From the NCBI GenBank assembly GCA_903813345.2, contig CAIIXF020000012.1, positions 16,920,020 through 16,984,019 of the forward strand: a stretch of DNA of 64,000 nt, read 5' to 3'. Below, one piece after another: positions 36,968 through 56,541 of the stretch; the first letter of the stretch is position 1; the number at the start of each line of letters is the position of its first letter. A program made the position numbers and the translations under genes. The notes beneath the pieces were generated by a model. It saw nothing but the letters and a program-made list of their open reading frames with translations, ran no database searches and was not told where the DNA came from. Origin of the DNA: Owenia fusiformis. Its lineage: Eukaryota > Annelida > Polychaeta > Sabellida > Oweniidae.

Positions 36968-39900
36968 TCAGCTCTCATATTTATCTCTGACAAGTTTTTC
37001 AGTGATATGCAAGTCTTCAGGATATTGTTGTAACTTATGAGTGTTTGGAAGATAATAATGTCCCTTGAATTCTTCAAAGTATCGCCCAACTTCCGGGTGG
37101 GTGATTTCTGATGGTTCTGAAGCCAGCTCCAGGTTCTCTGTAAGAAAATACAGGTAAGGTTTTTATCTTTCTATAATAGCTGATGCCAAACAGACATTTA
37201 AATGCCCAGATTCATTTTTAGTGACTAAATAAATTAATTACCATATACTAAAATTGGGTTGCATTGAATGACATCTATTTCTACGTGAGGTTCTTTGAGA
37301 TTTTTAGTTATAACATCGGTAGTGAAATGTTATCCTTGGTCTAATATTTTCCATTAATTGTGCAAGTGGATTGGTTTATTGAATTACTTGGCAGAAACCT
37401 CAATACAAATATGATTTTATACATGTATTAAGTTGATTATATCTATGTTATATATATATGAATCCTCAAACCTTGAGCAGCATATCTGTTAGATCCATCA
37501 TCTACAAGAACATTGTAAAATGGCTGATACTGTTGCTTCTCCAGGTTTGGTACACCCATCTGTACAATCCATTCATGACTAGCAGTACAATGAGAGTCCC
37601 ACCCATATATGACACACTTGTATCTGTATCTGAAATATATGACACACTTGTATCTGTATCTGAAATATATGACACACTTGTATCTATATCTGAAATTTTT
37701 GACACACTTGTATCTAAATCTGAAATATATGACATACTTGTATCATTTCTGTAAATATACGACACACTTCTATCTATATCTGAAATATATGACACACTTG
37801 TATCTGAAATATATGGCACACTTGTATCTTTATCTGAAATATATGACACATTTGTACCTATATCTGAAATTTATGACACACTTGTATCTAAATCTGAAAT
37901 ACAAGACACACTTGTATCTATATCTGAAATATATGACACATTTGTATCTATATCTGAAATTTATGACACACTTGTTTAATCTGAAATATATGACATACTT
38001 GTATCATATCTGTAAATATACGACACGCTTCTATCTATATCTGAAATATATGACACACATGTATCTATATCTGAAATTTATGACACACTTGTATCTATAT
38101 CTGAAATATATGACACATTTGTACCTATATCTGAAATTTATGACACACTTGTATCTATATCTGAAATATATGACACATTTGTACCTATATCTGAAATATA
38201 TGGCACACTTGTATCTATATCTGAAATATATGACACATTTGTACCTATATCTGAAATTTATGACACACTTGTATCTAAATCTGAAATACAAGACACTGTA
38301 TCTATATCTGAAATATATGACACATTTGTACCCATATCTAAAATTTATGACACACTTGTATCTAAATCTGAAATATAAGACACACTTGTATCTATATCTG
38401 AAATTTATGACACACTTGTATCTATATCTGAAATATATGACACATTTGTACCTATATCTGAAATTTATGACACACTTGTATCTAAATCTGAAATACAAGA
38501 CACTGTATCTATATCTGAAATATATGACACATTTGTACCCATATCTAAAATTTATGACACACTTGTATCTAAATCTGAAATATAAGACACACTTGTATCT
38601 ATATCTGAAATTTATGACACACTTGTATCTATATCTGAAATATATGACACATTTGTACCTATATCTGAAATTTATGACACACTTGTATCTAAATCTGAAA
38701 TACAAGACACTGTATCTATATCTGAAATATATGACACATTTGTACCCATATCTAAAATTTATGACACACTTGTATCTAAATCTGAAATATAAGACACACT
38801 TGTATCTATATCTGAAATTTATGACACACTTCTATCTATATCTGAAATACATGACACACTTGTATCTGTATCTGAAATATATGACACACTTGTATCTTAA
38901 TATCTGAAATATATGACACAATTGTATCTATATCTGAAATTTATGACACACTTGTTTCTATAAAGATTTGACACAATTTAAGTATTCAAGCAAGGTTTAC
39001 ATTTGATACGAAATATGAACAACTACTTTTATACACATTTATTCCCCTCATTTATTGAGGTACCCATCAATATTAATACTGTATATACCTTTTATGATGC
39101 ATTATCAACCCTGTAGAGAACTCCACCTCTGGGTTTCTTGATTTCAGCTTCACATCAATCTAAAGACATCAGAAAAGTAGTACATGAATTGTTGACATCG
39201 ATTTGAAAGAATCTGACAATTATTTTGGATACTGATGTCATCAATACAAATATAGTGAAATCTGTTTAAGTGAAACACATATGGTGTAAATAGTGTTCAA
39301 CCTTATAGAGGGGTTCAACTTACACAGACTCATCAAACATTCATTATTTCGTCCCTGTAAAATATGATGATGAGTGGCTCTATGAGACTTTATTTATTTG
39401 ACTAGTTCTTCAGTGATAGCACTAAAGGTAATGGGTAACAAGATTTGGAAAACTGATCCATTCATTTAGGTCTCCAATTTCACAGGTTTCCTATACATTG
39501 TTGACCTTAATCTGTAGGCAACAGACAAATATATTAATAAAAATAGGTGACATAAATCTAGCAAGTTTATGAATGGCTAACATGATGCAGTAACATACCC
39601 ATTTGTTGTTTGAATCAGAATCATCTTCGTGAAGTTGTTGTCTGGCAGTGTCAGTGAGGTAGGCGAGTAATCCAGCTGGGGGACCACCTCCTTCTGAGGA
39701 TGTCACCTTCTGTAGCAACTCTATCACCTAAAGAGTACAAGATACTATGAGTATGAGCCTGTAATACAGTTAAAAACTCATCTGCAATGAACTCAACTAT
39801 ACATAACCATTGAAACTTTATCAAGATAGAGATTAACCCCCCCAAAGTGTGCCAAGACCTAAAGATCTAAAGATGGATTTAATTTGTCTAAGACTGACAT

Positions 39901-42900
39901 ACTTCAGGCCCATAGTCAGCTTTTGCCAAGGAATGTGTTTACTTTTCATCATGAGCGTTTTTTTCAATTGGAACTTTCAATATAAAGTGTATAAATATAT
40001 GTAATCTAATATTCATGTTCAACTGTAAAATCTACAAAACATACTTTTTGTGAAATTCAATGAAACAGCCTTGTACCATATACCAACTGAATAAAAACTA
40101 TTATGAGTAGAAATTAATGGAAACCATAGTGACACTGCACCATCATTTTCTAGACATACCTCAGTGACATTAATATTCATATGGAGATACAATCTGGCTA
40201 ATAGTAGTTTGTTGTCATTATCTTCTGGACATATCACCATCATCAGTTCCACAGCATTACGTAAACACTGGAGGCTATCTCCCATGTTATCCTGTTGCCT
40301 ACCTATGTTGATTAGATTACGTACCATTCGTATGAAAACCTAGGATAATATAAAATACAGTGTCAGTGTTGCATTTTGGGTAATACATTATGTAAGTACT
40401 GAAGGAAGGTTATCTCCCATGGTGCCTTGTTGATCAAATTACCCAGCATTCACACAAATAATTCAAACTGAAACCGGAGTGATATACAAGTAAACAATTA
40501 TGTCTAAAAGGCAAGTACAAATCAAATTGAATGATAACAAAGTTTATGAAAATACCATTTTTCTTTGATAACACCTCTACAAGTGAAACATTTGCCAAGT
40601 GGAATACAATTTTAAAGTATCAAAGGCATTTCACGCACACAGGTTTAAATGTACTTCAAACTATTTTCAACTCTAATAATATACACTTACCATTCGTGGT
40701 TTGATGCTTCTAAAATGTTCTGAGTTGGCATTGGCAGGGATGAAAAGTCCACCTTGACCAAGCACACTCCTACATTCATTCTGGGTAAGGAACGTGCCTT
40801 TATTGAAGACATTGATATATGTGTCTTGTTGTTCAGAGGGTAACCTAGGAAACAAAGAGTTCTTTAAAATTGCTTGCATACAGTCTGATCAGCAGATTAT
40901 ATCAGCAGTACCAAAAATACTTTGTATTACATGTATTATCATTTATTTTATATGTGAAATTAATACAAAAGTATATTTGATATATTCTGACACGGTAAAA
41001 TATATTTACATCATTGTCAATCTAAAAACTAAACTTGGTCAATAAGCAGACTTTTTATCAGTACATAAACGCTTTCATAAAGGAGTCCCACTTCAAGAGA
41101 TACTGTATTTTTTACATAGTAGTACTCAATACTCACGTTGGGTGTTCCTTGAACTTGAGCAAAAAGTGTGAAGGATAGTTAACAGGATAGCAGACTACAC
41201 CCAGTCTTCTGGCTAGAGCAGCATAGACCACAGACAGGGAGATAGGGATGCCTGTCTTCAGTTCTAACACCTGGAAAATTAGATAATTTTTGTACTGTTT
41301 AGTGTAAAATTCAGTGAAATATTCTCACTTTCAGGATGTGGATAAGAATTGGTCAAAATTTGCCATTAACAATTTAACATGTTTTTTTTCTCATTTTCAA
41401 GTTTTTCTAATTTTCTAATTTTCACGAGTTCATCAAAATACTGCATTTTCAATTTTACGTGGTTTTTCTCAATTTCAAATGGGTGCAAATTGATTTTCCA
41501 GAAGGTGCAAGTATTTCAAATGGGTGCAAATTGATTTTCGAGAAGGTGCAAGTATTTCAAATGGGTGCAAATTGATTTTCCAGAAGGTGCAAGTATTTCG
41601 AATGGGTGCAAATTGATTTTCCAGAAGGTGCAAGTATATCAAAAGGGTGCAGCATCCACTTGCTACAGTGCTTGGGAGATCACTGAAATTGCTTAGTTCA
41701 AATATTCTAAAATAAAACACAACTGGTTTCTGGAATGACATCACATGACCTGACATACCTTGTTGATATATGAGTTGCTAGGGATGTAGTAATGCTCCAC
41801 GTTTCCATGGAAATGTAGAACATCATACAGTATGTGATTGAGAGAGTCTAACACTTGTCTTGATACGTCACCAGGCCACAAACTTTCCTCAAAATCTAAA
41901 ATATGCAAAATTTAAATGTGGATTCAAGACAGATACCTAAATCTAGATTCATCGTGGAAACCAGCTGATTTCCCACAAAGCCTCCAATCAGTAGCAAAAT
42001 TTACCTCATAACAGTTTCACGAAATAAACTGAAGAGATAGAGATGAGTGATGAAAAAATTAAAATCTTTGGTTTTTATCATTCCATGTAATGCTACAGGA
42101 TGCTCCTTGACATCCCCTTGTCAATAATAACAACTTTGGACATTTCTGCATCTTAAGTCTTCAATAACTTCTATTTTCGATCAGGAATCTCAATTGTTTC
42201 TCTTTTAGAAAATAAAATTAGGAGTATCAAGGACATTCCAGAAAAGATTGCTTTTGTTGTTTGCTATATCAGGCCCATAGCCAGAACTTTCAAAGGGGGG
42301 GGGGGGGGGTTCACGTTTCCCCAAAAATTCTAGGGGGGTTCACTTTGGCAAATTTGGCCAAAAATCACTCAAGAATTAATCAGAATTGTGAAAAATGTTA
42401 TGATTTTGAAGGAAATTTTGGCTGGGGGGGGGGGGTATATCACTTTTAATTCATTTGACATGTGCAATCCATAAGCAGAAAATCATGATGATATCAAAAA
42501 TTAAACAAGGCATTACCATGCAAAATGTTACAGTCTGCCATTTGTTACAGATCCTGGACTCCGAACACCAACCGCTGGATGCCAAACATATCCACAAAAA
42601 AGTTGGATACTTAGTGACGATATGTCACCACTACCACTTCAGGTGGTACATAAAAATCATATGCAACGCTTAACAAATATTTCACTTAATTTCCTGATCT
42701 TGACCCTGTCAAAAAAGTGTAGAAGTAAACCTAAAGTAAAACTTACCTTCAGGTATTGGTTGTTTCAGAGCAGGATGATTCTCGTTGATAGTGGAGAGGT
42801 GTTTCCTAACTTGCCCCACAATTGTGTCTAATTTGTCAGCTATACTGTTGTGTGTTATGTCTAACGTAGGCTGGCACCATTGGGCTATCAGTACAGCTCC

Positions 42901-45900
42901 TGAAACAGTATATTATATAAGTCATGTCCCTGATCTACTCAAGGATGACACTACTGTTAAGTCTGATACCACATAGGCGTAGCTGGGGGGAAGAAAAGAG
43001 CTTGAAAATGCTTTTTATTTGAAGCTTCTAGTTCAATTTTCAAGGAAGTTGCATCAATAAATTCAAACAAATCTTAAAAAAAGATTTTGCCTTGCTTATC
43101 CCACGATTGCACCCCTGACTGAAAACCCCCCAAAAATTGGCAATCGCACCCCCCTGATTGAAAGTGCCTCTGCCCCTCTACCATATGTCTGGACTAACAA
43201 TACTTTAATGTAAGGACACAAAATGTCGCTTGCCACCACAAAATGATCACAAAATATGCTCATTTCACTAATTAATTTTCAGGATAAGAATTTCAGACTC
43301 ACAAGAATTAACTGAAAAATTGTGCTGGTAAGATCCAGTCTAAAAGGCAAAAACATGCTCTGTACTCAGCACTCATTCAGCTGTTGTAGAAGTTACTTTA
43401 CTAACCTGTTTCGAGAAGTTGTTTTTTCGATGGTAGTGCCAAGAAGTCCTCAAACTCAATGCGTAAGCTTATTTGCTGTACATATCTCAGTGCCTTCAAT
43501 GCATAGTAGGCTAATGTAAGATTGGAAACTGATGTCCTGAATTAGAAGATGATATACATGTTATAGTTGCTAATTAAGATTACATTCTGATACTCAAACC
43601 ATCTCTGTCATGCAAAAAGACTGATAGGAGGCTGTGTTTAGATCTCACGATTGGAAGATTAGACCTAATACAATTACATAGAGATCCAGGGCTCTCACCA
43701 GGAAATATTTAGGGTGTGGTGCTAACACCTTCAGAATAACCATTCAATCATGATAAATCATATTTATGTTATGTTTTATCCTTTTTACATGCTTTTATTG
43801 TATATTCAGTCAGGTTTAGACTGTGGAAACAGTCATGATTTGCCAATAGGGTGTGGAGGGAGCTAAATAGAGTGTGGTGCTGTGCCACAGTCTAAAAGCC
43901 TGGCGGGTCTTTTCAACTTTTCCCTGTTAAATTTATGATTTCCATTAATTTTGCCTGTTGTTTTCATTTATTTAGCATGTTGTGAGAAATTGCAGTGAAA
44001 CCCCTGAAAGAAATCTACTGTAGCCTATAATGCTAACTTACCTGTGTTTGTTATGTACAATGCTCATTAGCTCATCAACAATGAACTTAGAGGCATGCTC
44101 ATGCTGGCCCAACATAAGGGCAAAATTTTCAAACCCAGATTTTGGCACATCCTCTTTGTCATAGTACAGAGCAGGCATATCAGCTATAGTTCTACGGACA
44201 GCTATTCCGCAACTGTGCCTGTGGCGGTATTCATCTTTCCAGCAGTAGCGACATTGTTTACTATAGCGGTTTAACAGACCAGGCCATCTGTAAAAGATAT
44301 CATGAAATTATTTCATTAAGATGAAATCTACAAACAATACTAATATACAAGGTGACCCAAAATAATGCAATTATGCAACCCATAAATATGCTCGTCATTT
44401 CTATAGCTAATATAATATGATATATGCATCATCTTTCAATCATACTATTAAAGCTGAACTTTACGCAAACAAGCAAATTAGTCTTGCCTGAACTGGGGAT
44501 CGAATTCAGGACCTATTGCGAAAGAGGTACACACGCTAGCACTGAGCTATGTGGGTGGACTGGTCTTTCAAAAATGTGTTCGATATGGCCAACTCAACGT
44601 TGCAGGCACTCCTGAATGTGGTGCATGAAGTTATCAATTATGCAGACACACTCCTCTCTTGGGATAACTCTGATCTTTGCATAGTCAAACAACATTTACC
44701 TAGCCTGGGGCAATTCTTATTTCATAATGATGAAATCTACAAACAATATACAGGGTGACCCAAAATAATGCAACCCATAAATGTGCTCGTCATTTCTATA
44801 GCTTATACGATATATGCTTCATCTTTCAATCATACTAAGCTGAACTTTACGCAAACAAGCAAATAAGTCATGCTTGAACTGGGGATCAAATTCGGGATCT
44901 ATTGTGTAAGAGGTACATGCGCTAGCACTGAGCTATGTGGGTGGACTGGTCTTTCAAAAATGTGTTCGATATGGCCAACTCAAAGTTGCAGGCTCTCCTG
45001 AATGTGGCGCGTGAAGTTATATCAATTATGCAGACACACTCCTCTCTTGGGAAAACTCTGATCTTTGCATAGTCAAACAACATTTACCTAGCCTGGGGCC
45101 TTCTTATCTGACATGTCTTACTGCCCCAGAAGAAAGCTGTTATTGAGTTTAAGGTTGTTGAACTAATCTTTGCAGTGATTTCTGATTTCAAGTGTTGTCT
45201 GGCGACGGTTTTCATAAACAATGGTCTTTCAACAACCCTCCCAGATACAAATCTGAGACGTATTAGTCTAGAATTGTTTTCATGGCCTGAGTTCGTCGTT
45301 AACATGCTAAATATAAGAGTTAGCTGACGTTTGGGAGTCTGACTTACCTTCTAAAGGTTAGAACCCGAATCTTAATGAAACCATATCACCTTTGTTGCGT
45401 CGATGATGATGCATAAACACAGCATTTGATAGAAATTAGTGTAAATGCTTTTCCGACTTTTTCATTTTTTCATCAATGTTGACTTCCGGGAAGGCGTTGT
45501 AGTTATCACGAAATAACGCATTGACCCTTGAACTTTACTTTGTTGACATGTCAACCAAGCATGTCTGGTGTGAAAATTAAAAGAATATTAAGCAATGTTC
45601 TACATCCGCCAAGCTAAGTGAAGTAATTTAAAATTACCAATTTCAAGTGAAGTACGCAACGAACGAAACTGCGTGATCTACACCCCCACTATTGGTCTGA
45701 ACGAAATGCTACGTAGAAATATGAGCCGTCTGCTGTATTAGTCGATTAATAGAGTAAGACCTGTTGGTGATGCTTTATAATTTAGACCAAAACATTGAAG
45801 AACAAACGAACCTGTAAATCGTGAAAACAACGAACAAATATTCGGTTTTCACATATGTTTGGTAATTTTTCGTATTGAAACTTCCGGAACTTACAAGGAA

Positions 45901-46483
45901 ATCATTCATTTTCACGGTCCATGATTTACCTCTTGGATGTTGTGGCAAATGCTCCATGGTTGACGGAACAAAGGTGATATGGTTTCATTAAGATTCGGGT
46001 TCTAACCTTTAGAAGGTAAGTCAGACTCCCAAACGTCAGTTAACTCTTATATTCAGCATGTTAGCGACGAACTCAGGCCATGAAAACAATTCTAGGATAT
46101 ATACATGTATCCTATTTAGTCTGAATAACATTCATTGCGTGACCCAAAATAACGCAACCCATAAATGTGCTCGTCATTTCTATAGCTACTACAATATATG
46201 CTTCAGAAGACTCTGGGGCATCACTCATGCAGGTGCTTTAGGGCAGATAAGATCTCGAAAAAAATATGAAAATGAAACAACTGAACTTCACTTGCCTGTT
46301 TTTCAGTTTTTGTTTCCAGATTTCATTGCTGTTAGATACATGACAAAACCTCTTGCAAACCAATGATAACCGAGAGAGATCTAGGTGGGTAAGTACATCG
46401 CAGGCAATAATATGCTCTAGTAGCTCATCTGGCAACGCTAAAGGCCCTAATGTGGGCAGATTGTGTTTGTTTTGATCTGACAT
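36968..46483 (-). CDS. FBXO21: F-box only protein 21 (F-box, SirB1-like and YccV-like domains)
   Basis: Substrate-receptor subunit of an SCF ubiquitin ligase. Twelve coding exons: 46296-46483, 44042-44287, 43406-43536, 42747-42899, 41759-41895, 41137-41270, 40691-40844, 40160-40339, 39599-39727, 39089-39159, 37472-37629, 36968-37137. They total 1851 bp, 616 aa (human about 620-628), and every phase closes. The F-box spans residues ~16-60 (LPDELLEHIIACDVLTHLDL, ending EIWKQKL). The SirB1/transglutaminase-like domain is ~245-325 (GIPISLSVVYAALARRLGVV, YPSHFLLKF). The YccV/HspQ-like domain is ~490-600 (FSTGLIMHHKR, KCVIYGWD, FYNVLVDDGSNRYAAQ, HPEVGRYFEEF). Intron 1 uses a GC-AG donor (AG|GCAAGT). 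Intron 10 is nearly all a minisatellite derived from its own acceptor. Intron 1 is a nest of repeats, including a 410-bp duplication. Confidence 0.95.
37472..37629 (-). CDS. FBXO21: FBXO21 exon 11, whose 3' splice site is the first unit of a tandem array
   Basis: Begins after TTTCAG and reads (AG)A-TAC-AGA-TAC-AAG, giving HHKR-YRYKCVIYGWD across the junction. This is the same length as the human KHKRYGYNCVIYGWD, so this AG is taken as the ancestral acceptor. A second CAG six bases further in would delete two residues in frame. The exon holds the core of the YccV-like domain and ends at a GTTTGAG donor. Confidence 0.9.
37611..38974 (-). repeat. 30-bp minisatellite made from the FBXO21 intron 10 / exon 11 junction
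   Basis: About 45 units, mostly 30 bp, with a few of 27, 24 and one of 32. On the FBXO21 strand a unit reads ATATATTTCAG followed by the first 19 bases of exon 11 sequence. The unit nearest the gene overlaps the real exon start. The array fills about nine tenths of intron 10 (37630-39088). Nearly every unit keeps an acceptor-like TTTCAG, TTTTAG or TTACAG. From 38292 on there is a 207-bp higher-order repeat of seven units, present twice in full and once in part, which indicates recent block duplication. In the coding frame units encode YFRYRYKCVI. In-frame stops occur in the fifth, sixth, fourteenth-fifteenth and forty-second units counted from the exon. Confidence 0.95.
41475..41650. repeat. 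41-bp minisatellite, about four units, FBXO21 intron 5
   Basis: Unit GGGTGCAAATTGATTTTCCA plus GAAGGTGCAAGTATTTCAAAT; starts at 41481, 41522, 41563 and 41604 give an exact 41-bp period. Related GGGTGCAA sequence lies near 15150. Confidence 0.93.
42270..42440. mobile_element. CAGGCCCGTAGCCAGG-family MITE, copy 3, FBXO21 intron 4
   Basis: CAGGCCCATAGCCAG...CAAATTTGGCCAAAAATCAC...TATGATTTTGAAGGAAATTT with poly-G tracts at each side; its right terminal sequence is lost or decayed. Confidence 0.75.
43688..43915. mobile_element. Small foldback in FBXO21 intron 2
   Basis: CAGGGCTCTCACCAGGAAAT and GGGTGTGGTGCTAACACC at the left recur inverted as GAGTGTGGTGCTGTGCCAC and AAGCCTGGCGGGTC at the right. 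Imperfect arms; decayed. Confidence 0.45.
44486..44556 (-). ncRNA. tRNA-derived SINE head, copy 1
   Basis: On the minus strand CCCACATAGCTCAGTGCTAG resembles a Pol III A box and GAATTCGATCCCCAG a B box, about 45 bases apart, as in a tRNA. Arms do not close into a good cloverleaf, so this is a SINE head or tRNA relic rather than a working tRNA gene. Confidence 0.6.
44876..44946 (-). ncRNA. tRNA-derived SINE head, copy 2
   Basis: Second copy within the 410-bp duplication. The B box is slightly altered (AATTTGATCCCCAG), suggesting it is no longer active. Confidence 0.55.
45271..46098. mobile_element. Inverted duplication with ~130-bp arms around a 563-bp spacer, FBXO21 intron 1
   Basis: 45271-45401 and 45965-46098 are reverse complements with about four differences in 130 bp. 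Each arm contains CCTTTAGAAG-GTAAGTCAGA, a good splice donor pointing away from the centre. The spacer is less AT-rich than its surroundings and carries on the minus strand an open start MEHLPQHPRGKSWTVKMNDF followed by GTAAGT. It could be a foldback transposon or an inverted duplication of a promoter/first-exon unit. Confidence 0.7.
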
Positions 46484-53524: not shown

Positions 53525-55394
53525 TAGAAACGAAAACTAAATTCTTTCATTACGCGAAAACCGTTGAAATATCTACCTGATTCGCTGGAATAGTCATTAG
53601 TCACATTATTTCAGAGCAAACAATTAGCATCTACTATAATATTTATTTTTATATCCGATATACAACTGATATTGATATCTTTCCCCGGGCAATGTGTTAT
53701 CTCATGATCCGTTGACATCATCAACAATTTGATTTACCACAAGAGAGTAACCAACATTCCTTAATTAAAAAGTTGACATTTCTTGAATTTTACAGCAAAA
53801 ACACTATGCCACAATAACATCGAGGCAAAATCAAAACATGGTGTGGAAATAAAAGGCATACAAAATGGCCATTAAAATGAAATTCTTGTTCATAAAAGTA
53901 TCAACTTTATTACATTGGACGCAAATACAAAGTATAGAATAAATAAAAATAACGTCTTCCCAGAGATTACAATACGGATCAGTAAGTCAACAAATCTAAC
54001 TGTTAAATAAACAAACTTAGCCCATGTCTGCAATTGTTCGTCTGCTGGTCAGAACTCGGTATCCTCTTCGGATAATCAATTTCTGTGACTACTGATGTCT
54101 TAAATAATTCATAAAGACGACGTTGTCTTTAAATAAGGATCTTTAATCTACAAACTGTAAATAAATAGCGTGAACCGGGATCGTAGACAACAACATTAAT
54201 ACCTTGCTGTCCTCTGTTAAATCACGAAACCCGTTTCCCTTAAATTTTTTACTAAGAGACTTACACATGCATAAGTTATCTATCAAATTATTTTTCTTTA
54301 AATATTAAATGTCGTCTTAGTTTGTTTTAATGATTACTCTTCATCTAGATTCATTAATCATCACAATATTTATATATACATATTATGTAATAGACCTATC
54401 ATATCACGTCCGTAGTTACAAAGTCAACTACATATTAATGCAATAGAATAAGACTCAATAATTAAAAAAATAAACCTCAGTATTCGGGCCTAAAAAACAC
54501 AGATAAGTGTATCAATACCAACGGGTAAGCTCAAATAGCCTTCCAAATAAGTGTATCAATAATCAAGGATTGCGAGTACTAAGGACCGGGTAAGATGGTG
54601 GTAACATTGGTATTGCTAGTTATTAAACACGATTTTGTCTTGTGATAGCACAAGACAATATTGTTGATAAACTATAGAATTGCAACAGTTAAAGTTGTAG
54701 TTAAAGAGTAAGATGTTACTGTTCAACTGCAGCCACAAAAGACTGTAAAGTTAAATAAGATGATTGTTCAACTGCAACACTAAACATTGCAAACTTATGT
54801 TATAAGATGTTACTGTTTATCCTCAACAACAATGGACTGCATTAAGTATTATTAAAAGACATTTCATTTTTACGCATCACAATTTTTCATTTTTTACATA
54901 TAGCATTCCTTTACTGTAGAACAATGGAATGAAAACAAAATAGATGCTACATGTCATTATATTTTCAATTGGAACCATATTGTTTTGTTTTTATTTGTGG
55001 AAGCTAGGGTGAATAATGTGTATGCAATCAATACTTTACCAATACATGAACTGACATTTTACCATCAGACATCATAATATTAAGTACTAGTGGAATAAGA
55101 GGTAGGCATAAATACTTAATGTTTTTATAATTCTAAATTGTAGCATTTGAGTATCATATTTATAAGATATTATATTTACTATTATCTATTAGTATTAAAT
55201 ATTATAAAACATTTTACATATAACTATTTATATATTTCCAATTGATAATTTTATTTTTTTCTCACGAGCTGACTTTGTTAATTTCACCTCTAGAGAAGTA
55301 TAATTATATGAAATATAATTATACTTGTATTATATATTCACTGAAGTGTATCATATGTCTATATATTGCAGATATCCTAATATCTGATTATGAA

Positions 55395-55678
55395 GATACA
55401 TGACAAGAAGAACAAGTAGATGCAGTTACTAGTTTATGGAAACTTACAATTCCTAACCAATGTGAGTTCATATGTTTATATTCTTTACTATTTGTAGCAT
55501 CCGTAATTTTTTCTATTCTATTTTGAATGTATATAAGATACATGACAAGAAGAACAAGTAGATGCAGTTACTAGTTTATGGAAACTTACAATTCCTAACC
55601 AATGTGAGTTCATATGTTTATATTCTTTACTATTTGTAGCATCCGTAATTTTTTCTATTCTATTTTGAATGTATATAA
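55395..55678. repeat. 142-bp direct tandem duplication (two copies)
   Basis: GATACATGACAAGAAG begins at 55395 and again at 55537; the two 142-bp copies appear identical by eye and each contains one TGTAGCATCCGTAAT motif. The lack of visible divergence implies a recent event within the element. Confidence 0.9.
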
Positions 55679-56541
55679 GATTAAACACTTGCAATCTACA
55701 CAGTTGTTTTATATTTTCTATCACTAAACAATGTTCAAGTAACAGGATACTACTATATTCTCTTCTTTTAGACAGTCAATATATAAATGTTCCACAAAAG
55801 TATTCTTGTTTGAGCATCTTTTTTGAATTTTTTGTATAATTATGCATTTCATATTTGTACCTGACAAAAAAATATTTTAAGTCTCTTGTAACTTATTATT
55901 TAACAATTTCAGATTAAATATGCCAGCCATAAAACAGCATTGAGAGCTCCACACTTCAAAATGAAAAGGGTATCATTGTACATTTTTATGTAGCATCCGT
56001 AATATCACCTACCTGTGTAACAAACTGTAAGCATCATCATACTTGCTTGTTTAAGACAAGGAAATGTTACTTCATTGATTAAAGACTGTTTTCTGTACAA
56101 GAAATTAATATCTTTGTCACTCTAACTTAAGTAAGATGAACTAGAGAATAAATGAACCATCACTAAGTGGAATAAAAATTTATAAGATAATCAAAAAAAG
56201 TGATTTTTTGTGAAAAGATATTTAAATTCCAATATTTTCAGTTTTTATATTATTAATTCTACCATTTTCTTCCATTCCAGAAACTTACCAGTGACAATGT
56301 GCAATTCTTGTGGAAATGGGATACAATAAATTTGAGACATATAGCAGCTGTTATTCTGATGGTGTCAAACTTTGGATGACCGAATGAGACACTAAGAGAT
56401 GCGAATACTTCAGGATTTTTGTGTCAAATGATCAGAAATAGATTTTTCTTCAATAAAAAATACAAAAAACAATACTTATGACAGGTTTATTTTTTGATTG
56501 TCATGTCCTCCAAAAGTGCTATTTTATGTGAAAATTACCGA

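Follow-up and report, generated by a model that had tools for sequence, protein, structure and literature searches.

An array of 3' splice-site copies fills FBXO21 intron 10 of the annelid Owenia fusiformis, with similar arrays at other genes

The window, that is, the whole 64,000-nt stretch of Owenia fusiformis DNA analyzed here, comes from C12:16920020-16984019 and carries the FBXO21 gene on its minus strand. The tenth intron of this gene is occupied almost completely by a tandem array that reaches into the following exon. The features, in window positions, are listed below.

36971..46483, minus strand: FBXO21 gene, 12 coding exons, exact match to the deposited Owenia fusiformis protein P0001
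39089..39159, minus strand: FBXO21 exon 10, whose 3' end (...CATCATAAAAG) supplies two bases of a split Arg codon (P0001 mapping; junction validated)
38963..39088, minus strand: stretch of intron 10 upstream of the array, opening with the donor GTATAT
37605..38962, minus strand: tandem array, about 45 units of 30 bp (Tandem Repeats Finder and unit decomposition)
38221..38841, minus strand: three successive 207-bp higher-order copies, seven units each
37720..37833, minus strand: units 4-7 counted from exon 11 (unit decomposition)
37630..37719, minus strand: units 1-3 counted from exon 11 (unit decomposition)
37630..37631, minus strand: annotated exon-proximal acceptor AG of intron 10 (deposited protein P0001)
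37629-37605, minus strand: last partial copy of the array, equal to the first 25 nt of exon 11
37472..37629, minus strand: FBXO21 exon 11, 158 nt, starting with the conserved RYRYKCVIYGWD stretch of the YccV-like domain
36971..37137, minus strand: FBXO21 exon 12, the last coding exon

P0001 maps residue for residue onto the 12 minus-strand coding exons, which match the F-box-like, Transglut_core2, and YccV-like domains. Intron 10 (39088 to 37630) spans 1459 nt; its donor is AAAG/GTATAT (the slash marks the splice junction), and its first base is 39088. The array fills 38962 to 37630, nearly the whole intron, its similarity extends 25 nt into exon 11, and non-repeated sequences flank it on either side. 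Elsewhere in the gene, intron 1 has an apparent GC donor at 46295 (CAG/GCAAGT), and intron 5 contains a 41-bp × 4.4 minisatellite (41472-41651) that does not touch an exon. On the plus strand, at 55393-55681, there is a 142-bp tandem duplication with 100% identity, evidently very recent, with a possible donor AAT/GTGAGT. A plasmid search returned no match.

Tandem Repeats Finder describes the array (37605-38962) as 45.8 copies with a period of 30 or, alternatively, as 6.5 copies with a period of 207. A typical unit combines 25 exonic bases, the beginning of exon 11, with the 5 intronic bases TTCAG, and the units are arranged head-to-tail. The nearest unit is identical to the first 25 nt of the exon and then has TTCAG where the exon has GGGTG. 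A sequence-only reading of this DNA had recognized about 45 copies of the intron's own 3' splice site, which is correct; the 11 intronic and 19 exonic bases that it assigned to the unit are one rotation of it and understate the exonic share. The 45 acceptor-like sites delimit 44 units, of which 34 measure 30 nt, and 17 distinct versions occur. Their identity to the nearest unit stays flat with distance along the array (Spearman rho 0.03, P = 0.86), and the ATACAG start of the exon recurs only in units 1 and 42 of the 44. The units span an authentic intron–exon boundary and end at exon 11, and many of them carry splice signals (45 TTTCAG, TTACAG, or TTTTAG sites), as do the boundary arrays known as mirages in amphioxus. 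A dispersed intron element, or introner, was considered and rejected: when at most 3 mismatches are allowed, a 24-base unit pattern is found 50 times in the 498-Mb genome (525 contigs), 40 times here and 10 times in one other array, that of CENP-P, where it lies within a different 78-bp unit.

The copied 25 nt encode RYRYKCVIY, within a stretch conserved among FBXO21 homologues. The homologue set comprises 157 proteins (120 listed of 367 matches, plus 37 from a query containing the insert that decoy splicing would produce). One strict continuous motif fits 67 of the 157; among the remaining 90, 77 have a GWD context and are mostly similar in this stretch (many with RSGYNCVIYGWD), and 13 lack that context. 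Since the exonic part of the unit encodes a stretch conserved in homologues, the exon is identified as the source of the units, and this sequence comparison indicates that copying ran from the exon to the array. Eight fragments (P0128, P0140, P0141, P0144, P0147, P0150, P0151, and P0155) contain unrelated residues followed by RY-x-Y-x-C. Their resemblance to unspliced genomic DNA suggests an intron at the same place. The junction repeat is present in none of the 157 homologues. Considering the intron implied by the eight fragments together with the absence of the junction repeat from all 157 proteins, intron 10 seems older than its array.

Part of the array is young. Copies of the three 207-bp blocks differ from each other by 0-1 mismatches; therefore, the expansion is recent, and it took place in seven-unit blocks. 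In this one haploid assembly, the near-identical blocks further suggest that the array length may be unstable between haplotypes or somatic cells. On the plus strand, an antisense frame stays open for 437 codons across the array (37594-38904), probably for the mechanical reason that the 30-bp unit is combined with compensating 29- and 31-nt units.

Beyond its first 60 nt, intron 10 contains 121 AGs, of which 45, including the annotated one, are acceptor-like (located after TTTC, TTAC, or TTTT); the other 44 are termed decoys here. Decoys 37660, 37690, and 37720 would add 30, 60, and 90 nt (+10, +20, and +30 residues) and reach the normal stop. The frame computation thereby bears out what the sequence-only reading had proposed from the donor AAAG/GTATAT and the 30-nt steps. 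These three are the only decoys with frame-neutral, stop-free products (3/44). The use of decoy 37749 would shift the frame and lead to a stop 30 nt ahead of the last exon junction; under the usual 50-nt rule, this product would escape decay. For the other 40 decoys, stops lie at least 298 nt upstream of the last exon junction. The sequence-only reading had placed in-frame stops in units five and six; the first in-phase stops are in units 5 and 7, and the frame is broken already in unit 4, the first frame-shifting units being 4 and 5 (29 and 31 nt). The proposed gradient from open near units to stop-bearing far units is not borne out: the frame-breaking units (4, 5, 7, 13, 14, 41, and 43; 7/44) are scattered, 37 of the 44 are intact, and three intact nearest units are what chance would readily give (P = 0.59).

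Across the 17 distinct units, the last seven columns (ATTTCAG) have a mean variability of 0.008, compared with 0.069 elsewhere. Such low variability would fit splice-site retention, yet 3 of the 30 seven-column windows, ATTTCAG included, are equally invariant, and TCAG alone ranks 8 of 30. Third codon positions in the same 17 units are slightly more variable (0.076 versus 0.047 and 0.041). A small acceptor matrix, trained on the 10 remaining FBXO21 introns, gives the annotated acceptor a score of 7.4, which shares 10th place among the 45. This acceptor is outscored by nine decoys, including 37720 (11.7), and by all ten training sites (9.2 to 17.5). Therefore, local strength does not explain the choice of this acceptor.

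In P0001, exon 10 is joined to the most proximal acceptor; being one deposited protein, P0001 is compatible with minor use of decoys. It presumably stems from the annotation of the Owenia genome paper, which reports RNA-seq support for 31,678 of 31,903 transcripts (99.29%), a figure not specific to this junction (PMC9977687). When the +30-residue insert was searched for among candidates roughly 89-284 residues long, no database protein carrying it was retrieved, and it is found in none of the 157 homologues. With 266 residues of the array frame as the query, none of the 1785 candidate database proteins up to E = 10 carries this sequence.

The arrangement is not confined to FBXO21. Five further 3' splice-site arrays adjoin homology-supported exons, and three additional candidates are listed with them.

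L012:4253-5207 (G000:C5): CENP-P array, 78 bp × about 12, 13 acceptors
L033, L034, L035, and L039: mirages at the genes for a relaxin-receptor-like GPCR, an exostosin-like enzyme, a sushi-domain protein, and a Cys-loop channel, in that order
L025:8767-9408, minus strand: candidate mirage with five acceptor copies at intervals of 112-127 nt, ahead of an open exon (evenly spaced sample)
L012:8129-9236, minus strand: possible 5' splice-site mirage, 63-bp array after an open exon
L020:2901-4700, minus strand: array of 57 bp × 32, with TTATTATAG/GTCAATGAG in many units

The 78-nt unit of the CENP-P array comprises about 62 exonic and 16 intronic nt. Its joined exons match PF13096 (E = 2.2e-16) and the solved CENP-P (E = 4e-13), whereas the exon alone is weak (22.6 bits in Pfam, with a cutoff of 25; E = 0.38 in solved structures). 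In the relaxin-receptor-like GPCR, two joined exons match the solved RXFP1 (E = 7e-34) in an alignment that crosses the junction; Pfam 7tm_1 reaches only 16.9 bits, under the cutoff, and the short exon alone has no match. The exostosin-like exon matches PF09258 (E = 1.1e-38), the sushi-domain exon PF00084 (E = 4e-4, barely over the cutoff), and the Cys-loop channel exon PF02931 (E = 1.1e-14). Sites counted by pattern number 13 for CENP-P, 21 for the relaxin-receptor-like gene, 12 for the exostosin-like gene, 14 for the sushi gene, and 6 for the Cys-loop channel, with open in-frame decoys at 0/12, 0/20, 0/11, 0/13, and 1/5, respectively. Pooled, this gives 1/61, compared with 3/44 in FBXO21; the ten-codon unit is therefore not a general design. 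Units as multiples of three, with in-frame early copies, were considered from the 30-, 78-, and 63-nt arrays and rejected, the later loci having units of 46, 49, 43, 40-43, and 112-127 nt.

Four of these arrays come from a scan for three TTTCAG words spaced 30-60 nt apart, in which the matches listed run up to 3.32 Mb of contig C1. From the listed matches, 11 arrays were taken, three picked as coding-looking and then eight more; the matches set aside were seven isolated ones and those in five clusters with symmetrical, TE-like repeats. Homology-supported exons adjoin 4 of the 11. The other seven (L036, L037, L038, L040, L041, L042, and L043) were rejected by eye, a procedure that an array beside a non-conserved exon could escape; L029 was also rejected by eye. 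Four arrays in 3.32 Mb extrapolate to about 600 genome-wide (95% interval 164-1537), a rough estimate that refers to this acceptor word and spacing, to one contig end, and to the fetched arrays. The genome of Owenia fusiformis thus probably carries several hundred boundary arrays. Genome-wide, there are 7871 TTTCAG triples versus 2552 for the reversed pattern. However, the single word TTTCAG already outnumbers GACTTT 1.87-fold in a 200-kb sample (241 versus 129), and the excess of triples after this word correction is about 1.6-fold, partly made up of symmetrical TE-like repeats; the enrichment therefore serves to find loci and is not a proof.

The evenly spaced sample (200 kb, 20 stretches of contigs C1 and C2) yields one candidate, L025, whose open exon lies upstream of C2H2 zinc-finger exons and itself has no Pfam match. 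The donor-side array of L012 has 18 donor-like sites, mostly GAA/GTAAGT, with 12 of 17 spacings at 63 nt, and its exon has no match. The L020 array could be another boundary array. In L026:1-9853, there are 145-bp arrays whose unit resembles, by eye, a tRNA gene or a tRNA-derived element.

The FBXO21 array is best read, with a probability of about 0.8, as a mirage, i.e., tolerated minisatellite growth of an intron–exon boundary that is spliced to the exon-proximal acceptor. A short segment across the junction of intron 10 with exon 11 would have been duplicated in tandem by slippage or unequal exchange and then amplified, lately in blocks of seven units. The spliceosome would go on using the copy that adjoins the rest of exon 11, while the upstream copies would turn into intron, drift, and expand. 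The proximal choice may be made via exon definition, in which the acceptor would pair across the 158 nt of exon 11 with the donor of that exon; decoys give exon lengths of 188 to 1462 nt, and nearly all of them would make an overlong or frame-shifted exon. This exon-definition argument is weakened by the unusual donor of exon 11 (AAG/GTTTGA). The array is likely to be largely tolerated rather than selected, and its evolution would then be nearly neutral.

Alternatively, the array could act as a splice rheostat, in which about 45 similar acceptors compete and the array length tunes FBXO21 dosage or isoform via truncated or lengthened forms. Such a role is unlikely, although the 45 acceptor-like AGs with nine outscoring the annotated one, the three frame-neutral decoys, and the low variability of the ATTTCAG columns are all in its favor, and recent block expansion makes length variation likely. 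In addition, human boundary repeats are often accompanied by alternative transcripts, 66% of the intron modifications in that account having an alternative transcript too (PMC2812944). On the other side, there is no gradient, the frame constraint is not beyond chance, the deposited protein uses the proximal acceptor, the insert is absent from all 157 homologues, and 1 of 61 decoys is open and in frame at the five other Owenia arrays. Amphioxus mirages, many of whose units have AG/GT signals, are moreover suggested in the reports on them to leave regular splicing undisturbed (PMC3087553, PMC3902484). Of the switch proposed in the sequence-only reading, the 3' splice-site copies and the three frame-neutral decoys remain, while the absence of the gradient, the proximal junction in P0001, and the lack of the insert in every protein searched speak against it. 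Furthermore, recurrence at several, probably hundreds of, Owenia genes argues against a locus-specific switch, and a single boundary array should not be read as a dedicated one. The broader proposition that boundary minisatellites at several hundred Owenia genes are hypervariable competing acceptors, with array length as a heritable rheostat on the amount of correctly spliced mRNA if decoys are used even at low rates, is doubtful. If a rheostat did operate, FBXO21 would be a case with a frame-neutral near zone; if the decoys are unused, the worm spliceosome must pass over dozens of near-identical upstream acceptors.

It is very improbable that the array is an ordinary satellite lodged at the intron end, with its likeness to the exon due to chance or to an exon overwritten by satellite. 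Minisatellites are common here (80 arrays with a period of at least 12 in 273.5 kb, made up of the window, L012, and the 20 sampled stretches), and 7 of the 11 fetched TTTCAG arrays are not recognized as mirages. However, the exact 25-nt identity is with a conserved coding stretch, the unit pattern is restricted to the FBXO21 locus and one other array, and a like arrangement with different units stands at five other homology-supported exons. An assembly artefact, with the repeat collapsed or inflated, is even less credible: the near-identical 207-bp blocks make the exact copy number fragile, but the array is flanked by non-repeated sequence at either end, diverged units are seen in similar arrays elsewhere, and the PacBio read N50 of 25.75-30.75 kb reported for the published assembly, presumably the one analyzed here, far exceeds the 1.36-kb array (PMC9977687). 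One proposed origin of new introns is tandem duplication of a boundary segment bearing splice signals (PMC3087553, PMC4974935). Such a step of intron gain is equally remote for FBXO21, where the intron seems older than the array, the eight fragments suggest it without the repeat, and an old intron would be growing rather than a new one arising.

The tolerated boundary growth preferred here has its closest counterparts in the amphioxus mirages (Adh3, globins BflGb6 and BflGb9, troponin C, and PGBD5), which are likewise minisatellite-like duplications spanning a boundary, with AG or GT in many units. They lie at 3' or 5' boundaries, with inner units homogenized, and in Owenia the inner 207-bp blocks differ by 0-1 bases. 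They also vary between haplotypes and may seed new introns (PMC3087553, PMC3902484). In contrast to amphioxus, the FBXO21 array is found in an annelid and has 45 acceptor-like sites, a 30-bp unit, and a 207-bp higher-order repeat, compared with 6 and 3 units of 150-160 bp in BflGb6 and units of 10-72 bp in Adh3. Splicing and length variation were measured in amphioxus.

Human variable internal tandem repeats, located in segmental duplications, also have units of about 30 bp at exon–intron boundaries and alter gene structure, but they average about 4 units, with frequent alternative transcripts or new introns; in Owenia, an apparently old intron is enlarged, and no alternative form was found among database proteins (PMC2812944). 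The intron gain in potato RdRp similarly involves a tandemly duplicated segment that carries splice signals; there a new intron arose, while the Owenia intron seems ancestral (PMC4974935). The intron-1 minisatellites of earthworm metallothionein are comparable as large arrays in an annelid intron, although the account of them, in the parts available, does not describe them as exon-boundary copies (PMC12783039). The literature searched, which misses most subscription papers, contained no earlier annelid report of boundary minisatellites. The six homology-supported annelid genes, and probably hundreds, suggest a recurrent, little-noticed route of intron growth, and such arrays are natural experiments on how one acceptor wins among dozens of near-equal upstream copies. 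The FBXO21 array joins the known mirages, and their recurrence in an annelid, Owenia, is what is new.
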